From Cantharellus purpuraceus (Eukaryota > Basidiomycota > Agaricomycetes > Cantharellales > Hydnaceae): a stretch of 64,000 nt of DNA. The translations under genes and the position numbers were made by a program. The notes under the pieces were generated by a model, which saw nothing but the letters and a program-made list of their open reading frames with translations, was not told where the DNA came from and made no database searches. Shown piece after piece: positions 36,226 through 62,795 of this stretch (position 1 is the stretch's first letter; the number at the start of each line of letters is the position of its first letter). The stretch is from contig JALBUN010000001.1 in NCBI GenBank assembly GCA_025174535.1, forward strand, positions 3,472,001-3,536,000, in the 5' to 3' direction.

Positions 36226-36726
36226 ACACTTCAATTCAAACTTATTTTCATATTTCAACATGATTCTCAAATTTTACACAATATACTAGATTAAAACATA
36301 TTTTGATATTTTGGCATAATTCTCAAAAATAATTGTTTTTTCCCCATTTAGTGGTGGCAACTCCCTTGAGGGAACATCCAAATATCATTGATTCTTTCTT
36401 ATACAATACTTGTAACATAATTTGAACTATCTTTAATCCCCACCTGGTATTTGCATATCTAAATACCCTATATAATACCAATTATATTCATATATACATT
36501 CCTATTATATCCATGTAAATAATTATGTTCATCTCAACCAAATATCTTATCTTTTAAAGTTTATTAAAATATAGAATATATGTTTATATTTATGAAAATT
36601 TCACACATCCGAAATCTTTTAAGATATCCAAATTGTAACTCCCTGGCTTTATGTATCATTGAAATCCTGATGTATATCTCCTATACATCAGAATATTGTA
36701 TACTGACATGATTCCGAACAAGCGTC
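36226..36726 (-). repeat. Orphan element-X terminal repeat, truncated
   Basis: Minus-strand copy of the 565-bp terminal repeat of element X (compare 49545-50109). It ends in GAACAAGCGTC at 36726 and lacks about 60 bp at the other end, where the Gypsy-A LTR begins. It shows that the repeat also exists apart from element X, like a solo LTR or a MITE. Confidence 0.8.
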
Positions 36727-38521: not shown

Positions 38522-39952
38522 TGTTTTGGAACCCGCAAAATTATGGTGTTAGGGCAAACTCTAAATCACCACAATTCCGTGAATGAACAGCTGAGAAGAA
38601 TATCAAACCCTGCTGCAGCACAACTCCAGAAACAATTTAACGTTTGTACTTTGGTTACAATCCTTTGTATTGGTCAATGCAGACTATATGCAGAAAGGTA
38701 ATACGTTTCTTAGCAGCAAGAAATGAATAAGACTTCCAGAGTCTAGAGTTCACGGACGCTTAGGGGTCCAGATATTCCAAAAAGAGGGGAATGCACTTAG
38801 AGGCTAAAGGAAGTAGGTGGATGAATCCAACCGTCCAACCAGTGGCACTCAGAAGCGGGTAACAGCGATGTGTGAAGTAGTCTAGCAACTGCTTCACACA
38901 AGTTCAAGCTTCTAATGCTCTGCAAAGGCAGTACACACTAGTTACTTAAACAAGAGCACTAATGGCAGGATTATCGACAGACAATCTCACCCTGTAGATT
39001 CGTAGTCACGTGAGGCAGATACTACACTCACGCCCAAAGCAGGAATATCACTACTTTGAGTGCAATCAAGTACAGTTACACAACTGTAAAAGATCCTTGA
39101 ACTGGTAATCAACAGTTACTGAGATAGAGGATGACACTGTATGTCACTCTAGTCACACTGGTGTGCAGAAGATGGGTAGAATATGATGATATGTTATTCT
39201 TTCAGAGGCAGAATGGCCTCCTTATATATTGTATTTACAGGGGCTGACTAATGCTTCTGGAATATTCTACCTATTAATAGATGGAAGCTACTGGAAGGTT
39301 GTGGAAGGTGGAAGAAAGGGGTAGAATATTCCAAGCCAATCACAGGATCTGATCACAGCACTAACACTGATCAGGAGCTGAATAATGGTTCTGGAAAGTT
39401 CTATCTAATAATAGAAGGAAACAGCTAGAATGTTATGGAAAGGGGTAGAATATTCCAAGGCAATCACCTGATTTGATCACCCATCAGCTGATCTGATCCC
39501 TGAGCTAGGCACTGATCAGGCAAAAGAAGGGTGTCCACCCTGTTTTCTGCACTGGTTTGGACAGCCATGGATAGCCACATGTCATGTGATGATCTCCACG
39601 GAAAATAGTGCCCTGAGAGGCTGTGGTTGTTAAGTTACAGAATATTTATTGATCAGAGACATCTGAGCTTGAATTGAGGCCAAATGCCTGGTCCAAAAGG
39701 GGAGAGCCGGCTGCGCGAAGGTTTGTGGGCGCCTATGGGTCCACAACTGTAGCACAGCAGAAATAAATGATTCTGGGCCGAGTTCTGCATGGAATATTCC
39801 CAGAAAAATATGGAAAAATAGAGAATATTTGAATAAGTCCATTCCAGGTACAAGCATCAAATATATGCTGATATTTAGGAATGGAAAAGCAAAGAATAGC
39901 ACATTGGTGCTGCATAAATGGAATTTGATAGGGAAAAGGTGATTCCCATACA
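38522..39952 (+). mobile_element. Solo LTR-E (copy 1)
   Basis: 1431 bp running from TGTTTTGGAA to TTCCCATACA (inverted ends TG...CA) and flanked by the perfect 5-bp target duplication ATATC (38517-38521 and 39953-39957). It interrupts Gypsy-C between gag and protease. Removing it and one ATATC restores the sequence seen on the minus strand near 63400. No coding capacity. No internal region of this retroelement occurs in the window. Confidence 0.9.
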
Positions 39953-48142: not shown

Positions 48143-49544
48143 GGAGGGGCATGATTGAGGTCTTATCCTCAACAATGTCAAACCCTTTGGCAAACATGAG
48201 CATGGCCGAGCTTGAGCAGTTGCTCTTGGCCCAACGGAAGGAAGAGGAAGAGGAGCAGAGACAGAAAGAGGAGGAGGAGGCAGAATGGAGATGGAAGGAG
48301 GAGGAGGCAGAATGGAGATGGAAGGAGGAGGAGGAGCAGAGACGAAAGGAGGAGCAGCAGCAGCAGAGATGGAAGGAGGAGGTGGAGATGGAATGGAGAA
48401 GGAAGGAAGAGGAAGAAGTGAAAGCTGAGTGAGCCCGCAGGGTCAAGGAACTTGCGGTTGCGATGGAGGCCGCAAGGCTGAAGGAAGTGGAAGAGCAGAC
48501 ACATGAGCTTGAAGCCACCATGGAGGTAGAGGAGGAGGTGACTGGGGCAGGGGCGACCAGTCACTCGGGGAGTCCAAGTGTGCCAATATGGGCAGGAACC
48601 CCTGAGGTCGCCATCATCTCGATTACGCAGACAGAGTCAACCCATCCGACAACTGCCCCTATGATGGACTCGCCGTTATGCCCGTGGTCACGGCCATTAT
48701 TTGTGGTGGGTGCGGCTGAGGAAGATGATGCAGCAGAGGTGGAGAGGGTGGAGGTGGAGGCGGATCCCAATGCCAATATGGAGCTCGACGCAAATGCAGA
48801 GCCTGAGGCGGGTGTGGATGTTGGGACGGATGCAGAGCTGGATCTGACTTCAAATTGCTACGAGGAGATGGCTTGGGTAGCCGCAGTTGAAGCTTGCAAA
48901 AGGGCGGAGCTCTATGCTGCTACCACCAAGAAGAACCTCAAGGTCACGATCTTTTCATTGAAGGTGCACCCAAGTGCTGATACAGAGAAGCAGGAGGCGG
49001 ACCAGAGGGTCATATGGTGCAAAGTGGAGAATCGTGTGTTGGCGACCCGTAAGAAGGAGCTGCATGTTGCTAGGTCAGTGATCCAGCTTCATAAGCGCGA
49101 GATGGAGAAGGCAGTGGCAGAACAACAGGACAAGGAGGAGGAGAGGGAGCACTTGGAGGCTGCATTGAGAAGGGGCAGACCACCCAAGGCTCTGGCTCCG
49201 ACGGAGCCATTTGGCAGGCCCAGTGTAATTTGCAACTTGTGTCGTGATGTGGGCGTGGAGTGTGTGTGGCCTACCAGTCCAACTCGCCGCCTTCGGTCCT
49301 GCAATCATTGTTGGGGTCAGAAAGGAGGGTGTAGGATCAATGGAAAGTTCGATCCCTGGAGTCAGAGCATCAAGCCCCGACTAGTGGTACAAGGAGGGGC
49401 AGAGAAAGAATCAGAAGGTCATCTGACCAAAAAGCGGTGGACGGAGATGGGTGCTGTGGCAGCTGGGGGTAGCGGTGTTGGATCAGAAGGGGCAACGACC
49501 GGTGCAGGTATGGGGCGTGTTGTTTTGGAACCCGCAAAATTATA

Positions 49545-50109
49545 GACGCTTGTTCGGAATCATGTCAGTATACAATATTCTGATGTATAGGAGATATACA
49601 TCAGAATTTCAATGATACATAAAGCCAGGGAGTTACAATTTGGATATCTTAAAAGATTTCGGATGTGTGAAATTTTCATAAATATAAACATATATTCTAT
49701 ATTTTAATAAACTTTAAAAGATAAGACATTTGGTTGAGATGAACATAATTATTTACATGGATATAATAGGAATGTATGTATTAATATAATTGGTATTATA
49801 TAGGGTATTTAGATATACAAATACCAGGTGGGGATTAAAGATAGTTCAAATTATGTTACAAGTATTGTATAAGAAAGAATCAATGATATTTGGATGTTCC
49901 CTCAAGAGAGTTGCCACCACTAAATGGGGAAAAAAGAATTATTTTTGATAATTATGCCAAAATATCAAAATATGTTTTAATCTAGTATATTGTGTAAAAT
50001 TTGAGAATCATGTTGAAATATGAAAATAAGTTTGAATTGAAGTGTATTGTATAAAATTTGAGGAAAATAGGTTGTACATACGTATTTGTTGTATTTCTGA
50101 ACAAGCGTC
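49545..50109 (+). repeat. Left terminal repeat of element X
   Basis: 565 bp, AT-rich, no ORF. Same length as 56887-57451, and I saw no difference between them by eye. A truncated third copy is at 36226-36726. Confidence 0.92.
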
Positions 50110-50642
50110 TTAGGAAAGTCTTGGAAACAAACACCTTTAATGCAGTGAAGCTACTTTTAAAACAAAGTAACTTAGTTAGGGCATAGTGGTAGATAATCTT
50201 GTTCTAACATGAGACTGTATGACTATCCCTCGTACTTTAGGGTGCAATACCATCAGATTTTCCATCCAAAGTGGTGGAAAATAATGATCCTGCTCCATAC
50301 TAGTATATAACTCTGTTAATTTCTGTTCCAGAAGTGTGCCATCAGTACATCTGTATAAAGTCAGTGATTGGAACCTTGATATTTATAAAGGAACTTACCT
50401 CAGAAACAAATCATGGAGGGATCCTATCCGAGATATATACCAATCATTAACTCTTCTATCAAACTCTATCTTGCATTGAAGCATAAAAGAGAGCATCTTC
50501 ATAATGCTTATAACATAAAAACATAATAATCATTTTATTAAGAAAGCAAGATGTATATATCTACTGCCTATACAAAATATCAAATGTTCAGAAAAAATGA
50601 TTATTATGTTTTTTCATTTCTGTTTTATAAGCAGAGAGGGAT
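50110..50642. other. Element X left interior, no gene seen
   Basis: AT-rich. An inverted pair of about 18 bp (AAAACATAATAATCATTT at about 50516 and its complement at about 50597) could form a stem-loop just before the first ORF. No coding sequence was recognised. Confidence 0.4.
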
Positions 50643-50891
50643 TTGAAAATGCCACAAATCTTTGAAGATATAAAAGCAATCAAAGGCTGGATAAGTGACA
50701 ATGATGCACTGATAAAAGCTATGGCAAGTCAAATGGAAGTAAAAGATGAATTAATATCTGATCTTATAAATGTCAAGTCTTGGATGAGTGAAAAGGATAG
50801 GCAGATCACTATGCTTGAACAACAGGTTAATTCCCAGAGTCAGGAAATTCAGGTGCTTAAGAAACAGGTTGAGGAAAAAATACAATTATAA
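50643..50891 (+). CDS. Element X coiled-coil ORF a
   Basis: 82 aa from the ATG at about 50649 or the upstream TTG-frame start. Helical, with heptad-like spacing (MLEQQVNSQSQEIQVLKKQV). It probably belongs with the next frame as one gene, since the two are separated by only a stop and a few bases. Not recognised. Confidence 0.4.
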   Translation: MKMPQIFEDIKAIKGWISDNDALIKAMASQMEVKDELISDLINVKSWMSEKDRQITMLEQQVNSQSQEIQVLKKQVEEKIQL

Positions 50892-50896
50892 CTACT

Positions 50897-51924
50897 TTGA
50901 CAGACAGGAAAGAGAATTTAGATGAATGGATGAGTGAAATGAATGATATTGTATCAGGATTTGGAACAGATATTCATAAACTTCAGAGACAGGTTAATAG
51001 GTGTGTTGCCACAATATCAGACCATGGAACAGATATTCATCAACAGGTCAATACACATAATGCAGAGAATCTTATATTGGACTATAGAACAGATATTCAT
51101 AAACTTCAGAAACAGGTTAATAGATGTATTGCAACAATATCAGACATTGTGGAATGGAAATCTGAAGTGCATGAGTGGATTGTAGAAACAGATGATACTG
51201 TAGTGGAACTTGGAACAGACATTAATAAACTTCAGAAACAGGGTGATAAATATAAAGCAATAATATCTGAGATTGTTGACTGGAAATTTGATATGAATCA
51301 CTGGGCTGGAAAACAAGAACAGGAGGTAACAAGGTTACAGGAAAATGGTACCAGAAAGGTGACATTTAAGATAGTGAAAAGAGGTGTAGACTATATACTT
51401 ATAGACTCAGATCAGTCTTGTAGACTAAATAGAATGGAATTATTCATAAATGGTGAGCCTAGAAAACTATCTACAATATATACTAGAAAGAATGAAATGT
51501 CATCATATGACGTAGATGGTAATAGGATTAATTTTCAAACATGGAAGCAAGGAATGACTCAAGGTTTAAGGCATCAAGAAAAAGGTCTAATGAACGATCT
51601 CAAACTCCTAGTTCAAGGCATCAAGAAAAAAGGTCTAAGGAACGATCTGATTCAGACTCTGATCAATCTGATTCAGACTCTGATCAATCTGATTCAGACT
51701 CTGATCAATCTGATTCAGACTCTGATCAATCTGATTCAGACTCTGATCAATCTGATTCAGACTCTGATCAATCTGATTCAGACTCTGATCAATCTGATTC
51801 AGACTCTGATCAATCTGATTCAGACTCTGATCAATCTGATTCAGACTCTGATCAATCTGATTCAGACTCTGATCAATCTCAAATTCCTAGTTCAAGAAAA
51901 AGATGTAGAGGGAGAACCCAGTAA
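50897..51924 (+). pseudogene. Element X coiled-coil / acidic-repeat protein
   Basis: The frame from 50897 has three imperfect repeats of a segment like TDIHKLQ-x-QVNRC-x-ATIS (about 50960-51150), then WKSEVHEWIVETDD-type helices. It then has a more globular part (VTFKIVKRGVDYILIDSDQS). Near 51541 the likely coding frame shifts to one reading MEARNDSRFKASRKRSNERS, followed by eleven 7-residue SDSDQSD units and a basic end (SSRKRCRGRTQ) stopping at 51924. The basic and acidic tail looks nuclear. The frame change implies a lesion or an unrecognised intron. No known family. Confidence 0.45.
51646..51879 (+). repeat. 21-bp coding minisatellite
   Basis: About 11 near-perfect copies of TCTGATTCAGACTCTGATCAA. 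In the favoured frame it encodes the acidic unit SDSDQSD; the alternative LIQTLIN reading is probably a shadow. Confidence 0.93.
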
Positions 51925-51994
51925 TGTAAGCCTCCGAAGACGTAGGATACAAGGTCACCTTGGAGTGAATGGCTGTCCATGAGCAGTCTAATGA

Positions 51995-52539
51995 TGTCCC
52001 TATCTGTCGTTTCATTTCTCCATGATTTCCCCTTTAGTAGCTCAACTTCACACGCATCGTCAGCTGGCTTGATCAGCATTTCTTGCATCATTTGCTCCTC
52101 ATATTGTGTCGTTGTGCCCTGGGAATTTTTATATAAAAGGGCGCTAGTTTTTGCCTTTGGAATCAAAAAACAAGTTTTCAGCCAACGCTCTAAGTCTACA
52201 CTCTACATCACAATCCATCATCTCTACACTGAGGTAAAACACCTTGGTTCAACGATCAGATTTCCCTCCGCCACCGAGAGGTTGCTTCTCCTGAAACCAG
52301 CTTTCGCGTACCTTCCAACCGGGCTCCGCATTGTCATCCAGTCACAGAGCACGATCAGCCATCGGGACCGACCTTTTGCTCCCATCCTCATCCAACCACA
52401 GAGCACTATCCCACTTCCCTGTTACGTATCCCTCGCCCTGATTGATCTTTGGAGTGCTGAACAACTGCGTTACACACCGTCTGCTTGCTAGGACCATTGC
52501 ACGCAGGCTTATAGGATCTATTCCATAAGCGAACCGACA
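51995..52539 (+). repeat. Truncated Gypsy-D LTR inside element X
   Basis: Matches 22677-23266 (TATATAAAAGGGCGCTAG near 52130, end GAACCGACA). The first 130 bp or so are missing and no target duplication is evident. It may have been carried into X or been truncated after insertion. Confidence 0.75.
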
Positions 52540-53031
52540 CCGAGTGACATCATCGGGCTGCTCAAGGACAACGATTCAATTATCTGGTACACCATGCCGC
52601 TGCAAAGTCTCACCTACTGTCTGCTCAGTAAGTGCATCATTATCAACCCTCACAGCCAAAAGGCTGTCCTTTGATAATGTGATCAAACTGCTCCTGACAA
52701 GGTGACCTTCCATCCGACGTCATTACCATGATATGATAATATCCAATCGGCTGGTACACCTATTTAGCTATGCAGCAAAGAATTTGGAATGAAAGACTGG
52801 CAAGATAGGAAACAAGGAACTGGTAGAAGAATGATAGATGAAAGGACAGGGAATTCTGTATGGGACTTTGTTGTAGTATTCAGAACGAGTGCATGCATCT
52901 GGCTATTGACAACTTTAGAAAATATATATAATTCAATTTATAAATATTAGATAAAAATATGGACATTCTGCTCTTCAGAACTATGCACATATCTAGTAAA
53001 TAAATTTTATATATCCTTCTTTATTGACATC
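52540..53031. other. Element X interior, no gene seen
   Basis: A hairpin at about 52637-52680 has outer arms CATTATCAA/TTGATAATG and a core ACAGCCAAAAGGCTGT. No coding sequence was recognised. The left part may be flanking or internal Gypsy-D sequence. Confidence 0.35.
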
Positions 53032-53199
53032 ATGGGTAAAGATAAGAAGTGCAATGATTGGAGTTCTCATGATCTTTGGGATTATGGTATAATGGTTGAC
53101 ACACAATGGACTAAACAGTTTTTTGAGACAGATTTTAGAGATATTACTTTAGATACTGATGATGAGATCCTCAGTTTTGATTACAAAAAGATGATGTGA
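53032..53199 (+). CDS. Element X small ORF 1 (55 aa)
   Basis: An ATG-to-TGA frame with an acidic, Trp- and Asp-rich composition (MGKDKKCNDWSSHDLWDYGI). First of a run of short same-strand ORFs. Not recognised. A 17-codon ORF follows at 53201-53254. Confidence 0.35.
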   Translation: MGKDKKCNDWSSHDLWDYGIMVDTQWTKQFFETDFRDITLDTDDEILSFDYKKMM

Positions 53200-53276
53200 A
53201 ATGTTTAAAGGAGTCTTCAAGAAAATTTTTACATACTTAGATAAGGAAGAATAAGGGAAAAAGTGCTTTAGAGGAA

Positions 53277-53522
53277 ATGACAATACCTTGCATTCAAACA
53301 TCGAGAAAAGTCCCCCAGTTTTACCTAGTAACTGTTACAAGAGAGCTTGATCATGCTATCACAGAAGGGTTGTTTTCAGAAGTGATAACAAATGTAAGGT
53401 GTTGTTTCCCTGTAACAGTAACAGGTATGAAACATATTAATAGTAGAAAGAATGTTCTACAGTGTTTTGAAGCATTTAAGAAGTTTGTAGATATACTTGA
53501 TAGGAAATTAGATGAGAAATAA
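53277..53522 (+). CDS. Element X small ORF 2 (81 aa)
   Basis: The frame starts ATGACAATACCT and encodes a mixed beta/alpha-like sequence (FYLVTVTRELDHAITEGLFS, FEAFKKFVDILDRKLDEK). No signal peptide, no known domain. Confidence 0.4.
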   Translation: MTIPCIQTSRKVPQFYLVTVTRELDHAITEGLFSEVITNVRCCFPVTVTGMKHINSRKNVLQCFEAFKKFVDILDRKLDEK

Positions 53523-53560
53523 TGAGTTTTGAAAATTAATATATAATAACCAGAGACACC

Positions 53561-53740
53561 ATGTTGAATATACCCGAGATTGGTGATAAGGTATCATTTA
53601 TCAATGCAAGAACACAAATGACAGTGACAGGTATTGTTACATTAGTAACTGGCACTTTGTCAGATGACACTTTGCTAATAACTGTTACTTATGATGACAA
53701 TGAGATTCAGCTACCACTACGTGCACTACAACAAGTATAA
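53561..53740 (+). CDS. Element X small ORF 3 (59 aa)
   Basis: Begins MLNIPEIGDKVSFINARTQM and is rich in alternating Val/Thr, suggesting a small beta-barrel-like fold. That is an inference from composition only. It follows ORF 2 by 38 bp on the same strand. Confidence 0.4.
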   Translation: MLNIPEIGDKVSFINARTQMTVTGIVTLVTGTLSDDTLLITVTYDDNEIQLPLRALQQV

Positions 53741-54032
53741 GATAAATCAGATAAGTGAATATGCAATATTTTTATTCACTCAAATGAAGGCATGTGTGGT
53801 GATAGTGAAAAATTCAAATTACTTGGAAGTGCAATCATATAACTACTACATCTGTAGTTACAGATTGTAAGGATATTAAATGTCCTAAGAGCTCTGAACA
53901 TTCAAAAATACTCATCATGATACTAATGGTACTTATTGTTGTGTGAACAAAAGTTCAAATCTTGAAATTATCCAAGTGAAAATAGATGAAAAATGTTGTG
54001 AGTGTAGAAACTAGGACTTTTAAATCAACTCC
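53741..54032 (+). other. Element X interior with Cys-rich remnant
   Basis: A short frame at about 53926-54014 ends ...DEKCCECRN and contains YCCVN; upstream stops prevent a complete ORF. Possibly the end of an intron-containing or decayed small Cys-rich gene. Confidence 0.25.
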
Positions 54033-54683
54033 TTATGAGGATTCTTTGAACATCTGATTTCTTATACTTTGGAATATAATGTCAATAGCATTAGAACACT
54101 CTTCAAACTGAGCTTCTATGCTGTATCCAGAGGAAGGATATACAACAATTGAAACACCCTGATTGTTATTGGTGGTTTCATATAATTTTAACCTACCATC
54201 CTTAGTTATGATCATACCATAGATTGTGATTTTACTTTTCTTGAAAACTCTCTGCTGTTGTTTCAATGCAACAACCATTGATGTAACCAAATTGTTATAC
54301 ACATCACAGTTCTTACAAGTTTCCCCAGCAATAGAAATATCACACTTCTTGCCAGTTTCTCTAGCAATAGAAATATTACAACTAGGCAGATTATCCTGTT
54401 GCATGGTTTGCAGACTTGACATACAATGATTTTGTTGAATCCAGGTTGAATTACTTATTTCATTGCCCTTTTCAATCATCTTATTGTACAGTGCTTCTGG
54501 TGTTTTATCTCTTTCCTGAGAAACCGATCCAGCTGGAAAGAAGTCCTTTGGGGGATTTCTTAATCTGAATTTTATGTAGATGGTGTCAGAGTCTATATAC
54601 AAAGGATTTTCATCATCCTCTGGTTCTTTTTTAACAAAGACAGTAGATATTTTACGAACAACTTGCTTAGAGACAGACAACAT
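54033..54683 (-). CDS. Element X antisense ORF (216 aa), unknown
   Basis: The only sizeable minus-strand ORF in X. It begins MLSVSKQVVRKISTVFVKKE, has a short internal duplication (ISIARETGKKCD / ISIAGETCKNCD) with four cysteines, and a C-terminal part that looks like a folded alpha/beta domain (KITIYGMIITKDGRLKLYE). Its start lies about 97 bp from the transposase start, so the two may share a divergent promoter. Not recognised. In Harbinger elements the second gene is often a Myb-like protein, but I see no Myb/SANT motif. Confidence 0.5.
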   Translation of the reverse strand: MLSVSKQVVRKISTVFVKKEPEDDENPLYIDSDTIYIKFRLRNPPKDFFPAGSVSQERDKTPEALYNKMIEKGNEISNSTWIQQNHCMSSLQTMQQDNLPSCNISIARETGKKCDISIAGETCKNCDVYNNLVTSMVVALKQQQRVFKKSKITIYGMIITKDGRLKLYETTNNNQGVSIVVYPSSGYSIEAQFEECSNAIDIIFQSIRNQMFKESS

Positions 54684-54779
54684 AGCTTCATAGAATACAT
54701 ATTATTTAATTTAAAATTCAATTATCAAAAAAATGAACATATTTTTGTTTTACTGTAATATAAGAGTATCTTAGTCAAA

Positions 54780-56253
54780 ATGCCCTCAGACCAGCAAAAA
54801 CGCACAAAGGAGCAAAAAGAGAAAGAGCAAAAAGAGAAAGAAGAAAAAGAGCTTCAGCAACTTAAAATGTGGAATGATCAAAGGGACAGAGCATATAATA
54901 AGTTGATGGACAATCATTGGAATTTTCTATACACAAAGTGGCCTGTCTTAGAACACAAAAATATCATAGAACAAAACTAAAAGATATGAATGACATGGAT
55001 GATGTAAAAAAAGTAGTATATAACAAGCTTGGACCAATACCAGTATTTTTCTTTCTTGTGGTATTGTTTTCAGTTGAAGAACATTCTACACCTTATAGAG
55101 AGATAGAAAAAGGCTTGTTAGTACTATATCATCTACTCAAAGGTCCTACTTATGAAGAAATAGGAAATTTCATGCCATCAAGTAGCTTTTATGATGTTCA
55201 TAAGGAATTTTATGGTCGTCTGCATCATCTTAACTTTGATCTAGATAAACAAGTTACTGATTCACTGCGTACAATGTTCTCAAATATAATAATAAGGATA
55301 TTATCAGCTCTTATAAAGAATCCTCCAAAAATGGAATCAGTGACATTACTTCTTGATGGTCATGATACAAGAGGAATTTTGATTGGATCGACATCTGAAG
55401 AGGGGTACTCACATAAATTTAAAAGGCAGGATTTCGTACTCAAGTATGCATTGACATTAATCAAATGGTTCTATTCACCTCACCTTCATTGGCATGTAAA
55501 CTAAATCCTGATGCAAAAATGTTTGTAGAGATGGCTGTATGGAATAAAATAGATAAGAATGATCAGATAGGCTTTGATGGAGCTTATCCATCTGCTATTC
55601 CAGAAGTAGTAAAGGCAAGTATATTAAAGCCTAAGAACTTCTTTTATCCTTTTCGGAAGCCAAAAATGTTGAACTTAAACCTGAAGAAAAGATTTTTAAT
55701 AAGAAGTTTGGTGCCTTTCGTTCAACAGTAGAAGCATTCTTTGGAGGGTTTGCAATATTGTTTGAAAAATTTGATAATAAGAGATCTATTAGAACTACAA
55801 ATCCTGCTGTCTTTAATCTGGAATTAAAGGTAGCATGTCTATTATGGAATATTAAGAAATTTGTAGAACTACGTAAGATCAAACCATCCCCTTATCATGA
55901 AAAATGGTGTGAACAATATTTTGATTACCCTGAGGAAGAGGACCCAGATATTGAGCCACCCAGATCATTACTGGAAAGAGCAGAAGATGTTGACAAGATG
56001 ACTCTATCTCAACAACGACTATTAGAAAGATGTGAGTATGATGTGGAGATGCATTATGAGACTGAAAATGAAGTAGAACAAATAATAAGGCAAAGAAAAA
56101 GGAAAGTACGTAGAATATTTAGTTAAATGGAAATGTTATGCAGAGAAAACTTGGGAAGCAACATCAAGCTTTAAATCTACAGAATGTATTAAAGAGTATT
56201 GGAAAGACAATAGTAATAGTATTATTGTATACCTATGCTACATTCAACTGTAA
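54780..56253 (+). pseudogene. Element X DDE transposase with C-terminal chromodomain (frameshifted)
   Basis: A Lys/Glu-rich N-terminus (MPSDQQKRTKEQKEKEQKEK) is followed by a helical domain and DDE_Tnp_4-like catalytic blocks: LLLDGHDTRG (first Asp, about 55355), GFDGAYPSAIP (second Asp, about 55574) and FGAFRSTVEAFFGGF (Glu, about 55715). The C-terminus is a chromodomain: EVEQIIRQRKR, then YVEYLVKWKCYAEKTWEA, ending near 56253. Frame changes occur near 54957, 55470, 55655 and 56100, mostly in A or T runs. It would cut and join DNA; the chromodomain could bias targeting to methylated histone H3. The copy is inactive as read. Confidence 0.72.
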
Positions 56254-56309
56254 ATTTTTTTTCCCAGAATAAAATTGAATATTTGTATGTTTTATACTTA
56301 TAGGTATCT

Positions 56310-56807
56310 ATGGAGACTGATCCATTACTGAAACAGCGTCTCAATCAACAGTTTTACCAAAAGCCTTTTCACAGCAATCCACACCGGCTAGCTAATTGTG
56401 CAACGTGTGACTGGTACCCCTTTGGGCAGTATCTGGACCGTTCATATGCTGAAGGTGAAGTGTTCCAGCTTTCAAAGTATCCTCATATCAAATATGTATT
56501 TCTTGGTCTACAACCTGATAAAATAGGCTATAATGAAAGTGATCCTATTTTTGTAGCAGAATTTGCAGGTTTTCTGAATAAAACCAACAGATTTGTAAGT
56601 GGTTCTGATCCAACCTCTGGATATGCACACATTATAACCACACATGTGAATCAGGCGTTTGTTAGACAGCCAGGCCCAGATATAAATAGGCAGAAACTAT
56701 ATCTTGGCCGTACAGTGCACATGATCTACATAACTAGTATTGGTATACTATTGGCTTTGCTGTGTTGGACAGTGTCCAGACATACCAATGAAGATAAGAA
56801 TTCATAA
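56310..56807 (+). CDS. Element X ORF with C-terminal membrane segment (165 aa)
   Basis: METDPLLKQRLNQQFYQKPF start. The middle part has a CATCDW motif and no known domain. A hydrophobic stretch MIYITSIGILLALLCW near residues 138-153 is followed by a short hydrophilic tail, suggesting a tail-anchored membrane protein. It lies between the transposase and the right terminal repeat. Not recognised. Confidence 0.45.
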   Translation: METDPLLKQRLNQQFYQKPFHSNPHRLANCATCDWYPFGQYLDRSYAEGEVFQLSKYPHIKYVFLGLQPDKIGYNESDPIFVAEFAGFLNKTNRFVSGSDPTSGYAHIITTHVNQAFVRQPGPDINRQKLYLGRTVHMIYITSIGILLALLCWTVSRHTNEDKNS

Positions 56808-56886
56808 TGGCATGTCTAAATCTATGGAGAAAGAAGCTTGTTGATGATATAAGGTGATGATTTTTGTTTTTAAAATGACCTCCCTA

Positions 56887-57451
56887 GACGCTTGTTCGGA
56901 ATCATGTCAGTATACAATATTCTGATGTATAGGAGATATACATCAGAATTTCAATGATACATAAAGCCAGGGAGTTACAATTTGGATATCTTAAAAGATT
57001 TCGGATGTGTGAAATTTTCATAAATATAAACATATATTCTATATTTTAATAAACTTTAAAAGATAAGACATTTGGTTGAGATGAACATAATTATTTACAT
57101 GGATATAATAGGAATGTATGTATTAATATAATTGGTATTATATAGGGTATTTAGATATACAAATACCAGGTGGGGATTAAAGATAGTTCAAATTATGTTA
57201 CAAGTATTGTATAAGAAAGAATCAATGATATTTGGATGTTCCCTCAAGAGAGTTGCCACCACTAAATGGGGAAAAAAGAATTATTTTTGATAATTATGCC
57301 AAAATATCAAAATATGTTTTAATCTAGTATATTGTGTAAAATTTGAGAATCATGTTGAAATATGAAAATAAGTTTGAATTGAAGTGTATTGTATAAAATT
57401 TGAGGAAAATAGGTTGTACATACGTATTTGTTGTATTTCTGAACAAGCGTC
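56887..57451 (+). repeat. Right terminal repeat of element X
   Basis: 565 bp, direct orientation relative to the left copy. It ends GAACAAGCGTC at 57451, followed by ATA and the rest of LTR-E. Confidence 0.92.
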
Positions 57452-59165
57452 ATAGTGTTAGGGCAAACTCTAAATCACCACAATTCCATGAATGAACAGC
57501 TGAGAAGAATATCAAACCCTGCTGCAGCACAACTCCAGAAACGATTTAACGTTTGTACTTTGGTTACAATCCTTTGTATTGGTCAATGCAGACTATACGC
57601 AGAAAGGTAATACGTTTCTTAGCAGCAAGAAATGAATAAGACTTCCAGAGTCTAGAGTTCACAGATGCTTAGGGGTCCAGATATTCCAAAAAGAGGGGAA
57701 TGCACTTAGAGGCTAGAGGAAGTAGGTGGATGAATCCAACCGTCCAACCAGTGGCACTCAGAAGCGGGTAACAGCAATGTGTGAAGTAGTCTGGCAACTG
57801 CTTCACACGAGTTCAAGATTCTAATGCTCTGCAAAGGCAGTACACACTAGTAACTTAAACAAGAGCACTAATGGCAGGACTATCGACAGACAATCTCACC
57901 CTGTAGATTTGTAATCACGTGAGGCAGATACTACACTCATGCCCAAAGCAGGAATATCACTACTTCGAGTGCAATCAAGTACAGTTACACAACTGTAAAA
58001 GATCCTTGAACTGGTAATCAACAGTTACTGAGATAGAGGATGACACTGTATGTCACTCTAGTCACACTGGTGTGCAGAAGATGGGTAGAATATGATGGAT
58101 ATGTTCCTATTTCAGAGGCAGAATGGCCTCCTTATATATTGTATTTACAGGGGCTGACTAATGCTTCTGGAATATTCTACCTATTAATAGATGGAAGCTA
58201 CTGGAAGGTTGTGGAAGGTGGAAGAAAGGGGTAGAATATTCCAAGCCAATCACAGGTTCTGATCACTGCACTAACACTGATCAGGAGCTGAATAATGGTT
58301 CTGGAAAGTTCTATCTAATAATAGAAGGAAACAGCTAGAATGTTATGGAAAGGGGGTAGAATATTCCAAGGCAATCACCTGATTTGATCACCCATCAGCT
58401 GATTTGATCCCTGAACTAGGCACTGATCAGGCAAAAAGAAGGGTGTCCACCCTGTTTTCTGCACTGGTTTGGACAGCCATGGATAGCCACATCTCATGTG
58501 ATGATCTGCATGGAAAATAGTGCCCTGAGAGGCTGTGGTTGTCAAGTTAGAGAATATTTATTGATCAGAGACATCTGAGCTTGAATTCAGGCCGAATGCC
58601 TGGTCCAAAGATGGAGAGCCGGCTGCGTGAAGGTTTGTGGGCGCCTATGGGTCCACAACTGTAGCACAGCAGAAATAAATGATTCTGGGCCGAGTTCTGC
58701 ATGGAATATTCCCAGAAAAATATGGAAAAATAGAGAATATTTGAATAAGTCCATTCCAGGTACAAGCATCAAATATATGCTGATATTTAGGAATGGAAAA
58801 GCAAAGAATAGCACATTGGTGCTGCATAAATGGAATTTGATAGGGAAAAGGTGGTTCCCATACACGTGTCTCTGCGCCCAACAGTACTGTGGGCCAGCTT
58901 ATCCAGCTGGTTAACCTGCAGTCAGAGCACCTCCAGTGGACGGAGGGGTTGTTAGTGGACTTGGTGAAGACGATAAAACAGAAGGAGGTTCTGGAGGGTC
59001 AGCGGACTGCTGAGTTGCGTCAGCTGTGGAAGTTCATGGCCCCTTTGGACAAGGATTCAGATATGGGGGATGAGAAAGATTGGGTGTCAGATGTAGAGAG
59101 TGATGATGAGTTGGAGACGGAGCCTGAGGTAGACAAGGGGAAGGGAAAAAGGAAACACAATGTAT

Positions 59166-61365: not shown

Positions 61366-62795
61366 TGTTTTGGAACCCGCAAAATTATGGTGTTAGGGCA
61401 AACTCTAAATCACCACAATTCCGTGAATGAACAGCTGAGAAGAATATCAAATCCTACTGCAGCACAACTCCAGAAACAATTTAATGTTTGTACTTTGGTT
61501 ACAATCCATTGTAATGGTCAATGCAGATGATACGCAGGAAGGTAATACGTTTCTTAGCAGTAGGGAATGAATAAGACCTCCAGAGTCTAGAGTTCACAGA
61601 TGCTTAGGGGTCCAGATATTCCAAAAAGAGGGGAATGCACTTAGAGGCTAGAGGAAGTAGGTGGATGAATCCGACCGTCCAACCAGTGACACTCTGAAGC
61701 GGGTAACAGCAATGTGTGAAGTAGTCTGGCAACTGCTTCACACGAGTTCAAGATTCTAATGCTCTGCAAAGGCAGTACACACTAGTAACTTAAACAAGAG
61801 CACTAATGGCAGGACTATTGACATACAATCTCACCCTGTAGATTCGTAGTCACGTGAGGTAGATACTACACTCACGCCCAAAGCAGGAATATCACTACTT
61901 CGAGTGCAATCAAATACAGTTACACAACTGTAAGCGACCCTTGAACTGGACAATCAACAGTTACTGAGATATAGAGGATGACACTGTATGTCACTCTAGT
62001 CACACTGATGTGCAAATGATGGGGTAGAAATGGTTATTTATTCAGAGGCAGAATGGGCTCCTTTTATATTGTATTTACAGGAGCTGACTAATACTACTGG
62101 AAACTTCTACCTATTAATAGATGGAAACTACTGGAAGCTAGTGGAATATGTGAGAAGGGGGTGGAAGTTTCCTAGCCAATGAGCTGCTTGTATTTGCTCT
62201 GACTCATGGCATGAGTCATGGATGGAGTCATAGTGTGACTCAGAGCAGGAGTCATAGTATGAGTAATCACAGGAGTCATGGTATGAGTCATGGCAGGAGT
62301 CATTGCATGAGTCACCATTACTCAAATAACTCGGTCAATACTTCGTTTCCCAGGCTGATTAGCACAGCTATGGGTAGGCACAGCTTCTATTGAACTCTCC
62401 ACTGAAAATGGAGTCAGGAGGTGCAGTGGTTGTGAAGATATTGAGCATTTACTGGCAGTGGTGACCAGATTGAGTCGGAGATTGAAATGAGTCATGTGAT
62501 CGAAAATGAGTCAGTTGTCCGGGTGACTCCGGCTGACCCTGGGGCTGCTGACATCTGCGAAGGTTTGTGGGTCCATGTGGGTCCCAAAACTTTGCCCAGC
62601 AGAACAATAAGTTTGTAGACTCATTTCTGCATGGAAAATTCCCGAAAAAATATGAAAAAATAGAGAATATTTGAATGGCCCTGAATCAAGAGAAAGCAGC
62701 ACATATATGCTGATATTTTAAGGCCATGAAGCGAAATTGTACAGTTTCAGGACTTTGAACAAGATCTTTTTTAAGGGAAAACCAGTTCCCATACA
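61366..62795 (+). mobile_element. Solo LTR-E (copy 3)
   Basis: 1430 bp, TGTTTTGGAA...TTCCCATACA, flanked by the perfect duplication ATCTG (61361-61365 and 62796-62800). It interrupts minus-strand Gypsy-C pol. Its second half differs from the other copies and carries a degenerate GAGTCATG tandem array. Confidence 0.92.
62205..62325 (+). repeat. Degenerate GAGTCATG array in LTR-E copy 3
   Basis: About ten imperfect units of the type ATGAGTCATGGCAGG. Absent from copies 1 and 2, which have unrelated sequence at the same place. Confidence 0.75.

Follow-up and report, generated by a model that had tools for sequence, protein, structure and literature searches.

We analysed a 64,000-nucleotide stretch of the Cantharellus purpuraceus genome (assembly GCA_025174535.1, contig JALBUN010000001.1, positions 3,472,001 to 3,536,000; G000:C1:3472001-3536000 in our coordinates), hereafter the window, which holds an element, X, at positions 49545 to 57451. 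The best reading of X is that of a DNA transposon rather than a retroelement; it consists of two 565-bp long terminal direct repeats (LTDRs) and the internal region between them (INT). Comparison of its copies throughout the genome gave the new result reported here: the LTDRs of different elements diverged about six times as much as either the two LTDRs of one element or the INTs of different elements. Judged from these sequence comparisons, the INT is recent, the pool of LTDRs is older, and each element carries a matched pair.

Divergence of the repeats and the interior

Whole-genome pattern searches were run on the 40.15-Mb, 50-contig assembly and gave 54 INT units with both edges. We read 25 full loci, the 5 best-scoring and 20 plus-strand loci from these units; L060 and L062 were excluded for an incomplete left repeat, which left 23 full elements (23 of the 54 units) for analysis. 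Thirty solo repeat loci were also taken and 28 of them counted, with L022 (which stops at base 563) and L036 (the edge of a full element) excluded. The solos were drawn from the 40 copies nearest the query and are therefore biased toward the query type. Some loci are not independent: L054 and L058 have a common right flank, and L016 and L022 have common flanks.

The two LTDRs of one element differed at a mean of 3.0 of 565 sites, compared with 11.2 when 5' and 3' repeats of the 23 elements were paired at random, and none of 10,000 permutations gave a value as low. The own partner was strictly the nearest among full-element repeats in 13 of the 23 elements. Between elements, the left-left and left-right differences were nearly equal (11.6 and 11.5), which argues that the two ends have no separate histories. 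Over all 23 elements, divergence was 0.36% in the last 3 kb of INT, 0.54% within own pairs and 2.04% between LTDRs of different elements; for the 18 elements with matching target duplications, the corresponding values were 0.32%, 0.32% and 1.99%. The noncoding INT adjoining the left repeat gave 0.51% (23 elements). X and L053 were identical over the last 3 kb of INT, and their LTDRs were 9-11 differences apart.

Mean diversity was 0.021 for the LTDRs, 0.0057 for INT and 0.0042 for INT without its middle insert. Along the element, both repeats had a diversity of about 0.02 and most of INT lay at 0.0015-0.008, with a fall at both junctions. The exception within INT was the stretch 51710-52909 (about 0.01-0.02), the core of which was largely absent in 5 of the 23 elements (64% gaps in L010, L047, L048 and L063, and 86% in L051). 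This stretch is probably a later insert.

Because own-pair divergence equals INT divergence and the LTDRs are older, the INT appears to have spread recently over older repeats, with each pair dating from about the time of that spread. Faster mutation in the repeats alone would raise the within-pair difference too, which was not observed, unless pairs are homogenised.

At one site close to the repeat's right end, base counts were strongly different between full elements (10 C, 29 T) and other repeats (50 C, 11 T), among the first 100 listed right-end places as split by hand. It therefore seems that the repeats found today apart from full elements did not arise simply by deletion from the present full elements, and the contrast fits independent spread of the solos or different ages.

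Genome-wide copies, solo repeats and multimers

With up to 3 mismatches allowed, the left inner junction (repeat end plus TTAGGAAAGTCTTGG) was found at 61 places in the genome and the right inner junction at 58. The edges of the 54 INT units were spaced 5975-7263 bp apart, with one exception of 12,442 bp. Repeat ends, searched with up to 2 mismatches, were found at 625 (right) and 525 (left) places, which may include older related repeats, so most repeat ends lie outside those units. Reversed control patterns gave 0 matches for the inner junctions, the repeat ends and the INT right edge, and 1 match for the INT left edge. Since near-exact copies with the same junctions recur throughout the genome and the control patterns gave none apart from this one exception, X is not a product of chance.

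The INT left edge alone was found at 60 places, 59 of which coincided with a junction place bearing the repeat end. The 60th (C45:2948848, 3 mismatches) lies about one repeat length past the right edge at C45:2949433, and the two are probably separated by a shared repeat that has diverged. The INT right edge was found at 59 places, two of which, weak matches on C23 and C48, are absent from the right-junction list.

Four LTDRs were each common to two consecutive INT units, in three multimers on C38, C44 and C45. The C44 multimer has two such shared repeats, in a contig of 19,130 bases. The C45 dimer, the one multimer whose flanks were read, has TAA as its flank at either end, and any two of its three repeats differ at 1-2 sites. 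By coordinates, contigs end inside a copy of the element at the end of C9, at the starts of C15, C33, C36 and C40, and at the end of C44 (the sequence was read for C40 only), and the start of C27 probably lies inside a copy likewise. Such contig ends hint at long arrays that the assembly did not resolve.

At positions 3451-4005 of L064 (G000:C44), the first repeat of the array lacks its outermost 10 bases and adjoins TTA; the missing bases are perhaps the footprint of an incomplete excision. At positions 501-1589 of L018 (G000:C45), two repeats stand back to back in opposite orientation, 92% and 98.8% like the query, and the 92% repeat indicates that older repeat subfamilies exist. Two repeat pairs on C3 with INT-like spacing were considered as possible second INT families and rejected, as the stretches read had flanks unrelated to each other, among which was the one to the right of L049.

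Structure of X and its target sites

An earlier note on the window had proposed a DNA transposon with direct repeats like the long terminal repeats (LTRs) of a retroelement, inverted outer ends, edges set by two uninterrupted copies of the target, an ATA target duplication and an AT-rich composition, and the comparisons bore this out. Each LTDR of X starts with GACGCTTGTTC and stops with GAACAAGCGTC, which form a perfect 11-bp inverted terminus, and the two LTDRs were identical at every base. Target copies without the element, at 38522-38745 (98.2%) and 61366-61589 (93.3%) in the window, are both continuous across the joined flanks of X, with a match to the left flank that is only about 24 bases long in each. 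They read ...AAATTATGGTGTTAG..., and X is placed between ...AAATTATA and ATAGTGTTAG.... ATA stands on both sides of X, although the two empty copies read ATG, with G at the third base. The GC content of X is 0.34 against 0.47 in the left and 0.45 in the right surroundings. The same repeats bound the other genomic copies, in the 54 INT units with both inner junctions, and the DDE transposase, the 3-bp duplication and the inverted ends mark X as a DNA transposon.

The features of X in the window are as follows.

49542..49544, no strand: left copy of the target duplication, ATA, 3 bp
49545..50109, plus strand: left LTDR, 565 bp, with 11-bp inverted ends at 49545-49555 and 50099-50109
50110..56886, plus strand: INT, 6777 bp, starting with TTAGGAAAGTC and stopping with TGACCTCCCTA
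50649..51924, plus strand: open reading frame (ORF) 1, coiled-coil-like, 355 amino acids in L013, with an SDSDSDQ run of variable number; frame broken in X
51598..51921, plus strand: 21-bp tandem repeat encoding the SDSDSDQ run
53032..53522, plus strand: remnant of the gene for a 256-amino-acid protein of predicted PD-(D/E)XK-like fold; shortened and split in X
54033..54683, minus strand: 216-amino-acid ORF, family match not found; 21 of the 23 sampled copies have it at full length
54780..56126, plus strand: DDE_Tnp_4 transposase, broken in X; D193, D267 and E319 in the full-length frame of L013
56101..56211, plus strand: chromodomain-coding stretch, with which the transposase is out of frame in X
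56310..56807, plus strand: 165-amino-acid ORF, with a hydrophobic stretch at the C-terminus as judged by eye; all 23 sampled copies have it at full length
56887..57451, plus strand: right LTDR, 565 bp, 100% identity with the left LTDR
57452..57454, no strand: right copy of the target duplication, ATA, 3 bp

A truncated 565-bp repeat (bases 1-501, 98.4%) also lies on the minus strand of the window at 36226-36726.

The outer flanks of full elements matched exactly over 3 bp in 18 of 23 cases; for lengths of 2, 4 and 5 bp the matches numbered 2, 1 and 0. Solo repeats had matching 3-bp flanks in 25 of 28 cases, and the two sets thus share one insertion signature. An exact 3-bp match was present in 43 of the 51 insertions, made up of TAA (11), TTA (11), ATA (9) and others (12). 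The target context was C-TWA-G, with C preceding in 31 and G following in 26 of the 43 matched sites. Flanks did not match in the full elements L012, L045, L051, L058 (where the mismatch accompanies a shortened left repeat) and L063. Own-pair differences in these five were, in ascending order, 4, 6, 7, 9 and 11, compared with 0-6 in the others, as expected if several of the five are recombinants.

Genes of the interior

By its sequence features, the transposase is of the DDE_Tnp_4, Harbinger/IS5-like type. The DDE transposase relic described in the earlier note is indeed broken in X, where it is split into four overlapping open frames; as a description of the family, relic does not hold, as a full-length frame of 441-454 amino acids is present in 6 of the 23 sampled copies. 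The residues D193, D267 and E319 were kept in 15 of 15 aligned transposases, and the Kolobok C/DxxH motif between the second D and the E was absent from all 15. Against the Pfam DDE_Tnp_4 profile the element's own transposase scored 23 bits (cut-off 24.8), and relatives with 53% and 50% identity scored 39.8 and 40.0, above the cut-off. The homologue search gave 80 relatives, 53 of which had a precomputed chromodomain, nearly all together with DDE_Tnp_4. The named relatives were all fungal (Apophysomyces, Rhizomucor, Mortierella, Actinomortierella, Circinella and Thamnidium). A scan of viral contigs with the transposase alignment gave no match, NCBIfam gave only weak IS5/IS982 matches, for the relative P0001, and no sequence match to the transposase was found in the PDB. 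The predicted structure of the transposase had no more than weak RNase H-like matches in Foldseek, with Tn5 at the top (E 0.015).

The chromodomain DNA and the transposase stood in different frames, in an identical arrangement, in 23 of 23 copies, which points to an old change, or to a chromodomain joined to the transposase by another route. In 12 of the 23 copies, frameshift indels fell within the first 900 bases of ORF1. The 256-amino-acid gene had that length in 4 of the 23 copies, and six relatives of its protein were found, with the fungus Ephemerocybe as the named source. A D...(E/Q)xK-like pattern was present in most of these relatives and is degenerate in the element's own protein. The top structural matches of its predicted model (mean predicted local distance difference test score 67.9, moderate) were mitoribosomal chains, which we take to be degenerate PD-(D/E)XK proteins; matches to AddAB, MGME1 and RecE were much weaker. 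These matches weakly suggest a PD-(D/E)XK-like fold.

The 216-amino-acid ORF showed 5 synonymous changes, 4 non-synonymous changes and 1 stop, and was the sole ORF with a low non-synonymous ratio, on these small counts. The homologue search with the 165-amino-acid ORF gave nothing at E 0.001. Pfam searches of the ORFs submitted, which included the orphan ORFs but not every small ORF, gave nothing convincing for the orphans and no His-Me finger nuclease, no Myb/SANT domain, and no reverse transcriptase, gag or integrase.

Proposed mechanism and alternatives

Our best explanation, which we hold with moderate confidence, is that X belongs to a composite-like LTDR-INT-LTDR transposon family in which INT has an intermediate stage, a circle with one LTDR or a multimer, and there exchanges its LTDR with the genomic pool. 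The transposase would act on the LTDR ends, moving solo LTDRs like miniature inverted-repeat transposable elements (MITEs) and LTDR-INT-LTDR as a larger unit. Recombination between LTDRs would give a one-LTDR circle or a multimer carrying INT, so that each new insertion would begin with two copies of one LTDR. At the circle or multimer stage the LTDR could be swapped with the large pool of older solos, and INT would stay uniform. A bolder version, put forward only tentatively, is that INT is a parasite of MITEs: wherever it inserts anew, it would take up one older mobile 565-bp repeat and, via the circular or multimeric stage, double it into a pair of LTR-like ends. If true, this would be a DNA-only route to matched long terminal repeats, free of reverse transcriptase, with separate origins in Kolobok and in a Harbinger-like lineage.

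Recombination among full-element LTDRs was supported by a site-compatibility test: 56% of informative site pairs in the left LTDRs were incompatible, and neighbouring sites were less so (P 0.001, 1000 permutations). In several elements, such as L045 and L053, the 5' and 3' LTDRs came from different groups, and the LTDR pair of L010 matched solos exactly.

Several observations weigh against passage through a circle or multimer. No circle was seen in this analysis, which covered the assembly alone. A direct join of internal edges (INT-INT junction) was looked for genome-wide and not found, nor was any INT edge clearly without an LTDR among the 60 left-edge and 59 right-edge places, so excision of LTDRs out of full elements was not seen here. 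The same compatibility test gave no recombination signal in the sampled solos (P 0.90), and in INT, with 29% of site pairs incompatible, clustering was not significant (P 0.14). In 60-bp bins the diversity drop was rougher at the left junction than at the right, the first 120 bp of INT giving 0.0065 and 0.0121, and one LTDR bin was as low as 0.0083. The transposase frame was broken in 17 of 23 copies. Finally, frequent gene conversion among LTDRs after insertion would yield the same pattern without circles.

Such conversion is the main rival, although we consider it somewhat unlikely. Here pairs would be matched after insertion, by gene conversion between linked LTDRs with occasional ectopic conversion from solos, and no circle would be needed. 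It would account for the recombination signal in full-element LTDRs, for the mixed groups of L045 and L053, and for the identity of the L010 pair to solos. However, conversion would have to diversify nearly all elements within an INT divergence of 0.32% and homogenise the pairs faster still, and own-pair divergence equals INT divergence, as one duplication event per insertion predicts.

Entry of INT into an existing solo LTDR, with duplication of the resident repeat, seems to us decidedly unlikely. The 3-bp duplications of full elements would then be inherited from the solo insertion, and the LTDR lineages older than INT, the fixed inner junctions and the identity of some full-element LTDRs to solos would all follow. 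On reasoning alone, however, a simple crossover or gap repair should leave hybrid LTDRs that do not match, and not matched pairs, and the C/T contrast near the right end implies that the repeats outside full elements are no random source.

The earlier note had also raised a composite of two MITEs around a cargo. This wording suits the solo repeats, and the inner flanks TTA-G and C-CTA resemble halves of an old 3-bp duplication in the preferred context. A chance composite, in which two independent MITEs captured the cargo and have since moved together without a duplication step, is nevertheless very improbable. Fifty-four units with the same inner junctions and the likeness of own pairs do not fit chance capture, and independent ends would have kept separate lineages, which is contradicted by 5'-5' and 5'-3' differences that are alike between elements (11.6 and 11.5) and by own pairs at 3.0. 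Scarcely credible is a gutted LTR retrotransposon (like a large retrotransposon derivative, LARD, or a terminal-repeat retrotransposon in miniature, TRIM) with an unrelated internal transposase: direct repeats, solos and multimers are known there too, but the mostly TAA/TTA/ATA 3-bp duplications, the 11-bp inverted ends, the missing reverse transcriptase, gag and integrase matches among the ORFs given to Pfam, and the edges TTAGGAAAGTC and TGACCTCCCTA, which by inspection are unlike a primer-binding site and a polypurine tract, all stand against it.

Comparison with known systems

Matched long terminal repeats are usually read as a mark of reverse transcription. X shares with LTR retrotransposons the terminal direct repeats matched within an element and the solo repeats, but differs from them in its 3-bp duplications and DDE_Tnp_4 transposase, and no reverse transcriptase was found in the ORFs given to Pfam. 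Software that calls LTR retrotransposons by their terminal repeats may therefore mislabel such elements. As it spreads, the element seems to create its matching ends or to renew them, and the comparison of repeat, INT and own-pair divergence gives a direct handle on how the layout is kept up, with ends older than the middle and paired afresh in each element.

The ends of bacterial composite transposons and of IS26, like those of X, are mobile alone; in X the transposase lies in the interior rather than in the ends, and the host is a eukaryote. For IS26 translocatable units a circle with one copy of the end has been proposed, according to the part of PMC9587614 used here.

The closest layout is that of KolobokP, as described in the passages of Kojima and Bao (2022, PMC9587614) on which we draw. 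These report animal LTDR-INT-LTDR elements with solos, (LTDR-INT)n-LTDR multimers and target duplications, in which LTDRs of about 450 or 660 bp have 11-18 bp inverted ends and the genes include a Kolobok transposase and a His-Me nuclease; they leave the maintenance of the layout open. As far as those passages go, X is like KolobokP in its LTDR-INT-LTDR order, in short inverted ends on each LTDR (here 565 bp), in a DDE transposase inside INT together with an accessory nuclease-type gene, and in target duplications at solos (25 of 28) and at a multimer (one of three read, TAA/TAA). Measured against the same passages, X differs in its DDE_Tnp_4 transposase without the C/DxxH motif (15 of 15), in 3-bp duplications in a C-TWA-G context, in a degenerate-motif PD-(D/E)XK-like protein in place of the His-Me nuclease, in an INT of 6.0-7.2 kb (23 sampled copies) with several orphan ORFs, in the fungal origin of the named transposase relatives, and in that no INT-INT junction was found here. 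Because the Kolobok features tested, the C/DxxH motif and the His-Me nuclease, were absent, X was not classed as KolobokP, though it appears to behave in the same way. Open-access searches for KolobokP and LTDR literature returned only PMC9587614, and no published Harbinger-type element of LTDR-INT-LTDR layout was found in the open-access literature searched.

The new class with LTR-like ends suggested in the earlier note thus stands as a DNA transposon with such ends; the layout itself is not wholly new, because KolobokP was published in 2022 with the same layout on another transposase superfamily (PMC9587614, in the passages cited). X has matched long terminal repeats on a transposase type other than that of KolobokP. 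The X family looks like an independent second case, and its presence on a different transposase type suggests at least two origins of the layout.

In the parts of PMC6327408 used here, the inverted repeats of PIF/Harbinger elements start with GG in 6 of 7 tabulated elements and with GK in the seventh, and some named Harbinger-superfamily elements had no ORF1 found. Compared with that account, X differs in its long terminal direct repeats, in inverted ends that start with GACGC and not GG, in having no recognised Myb/SANT ORF, and in the chromodomain carried by many relatives of its transposase. It resembles PIF/Harbinger elements and Tourist MITEs, as described there, in its DDE transposase, its 3-bp TTA/TAA/ATA duplications, its extended target preference and its many short non-autonomous copies. 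The transposase, the duplication length and the target context together provisionally place X with PIF/Harbinger.

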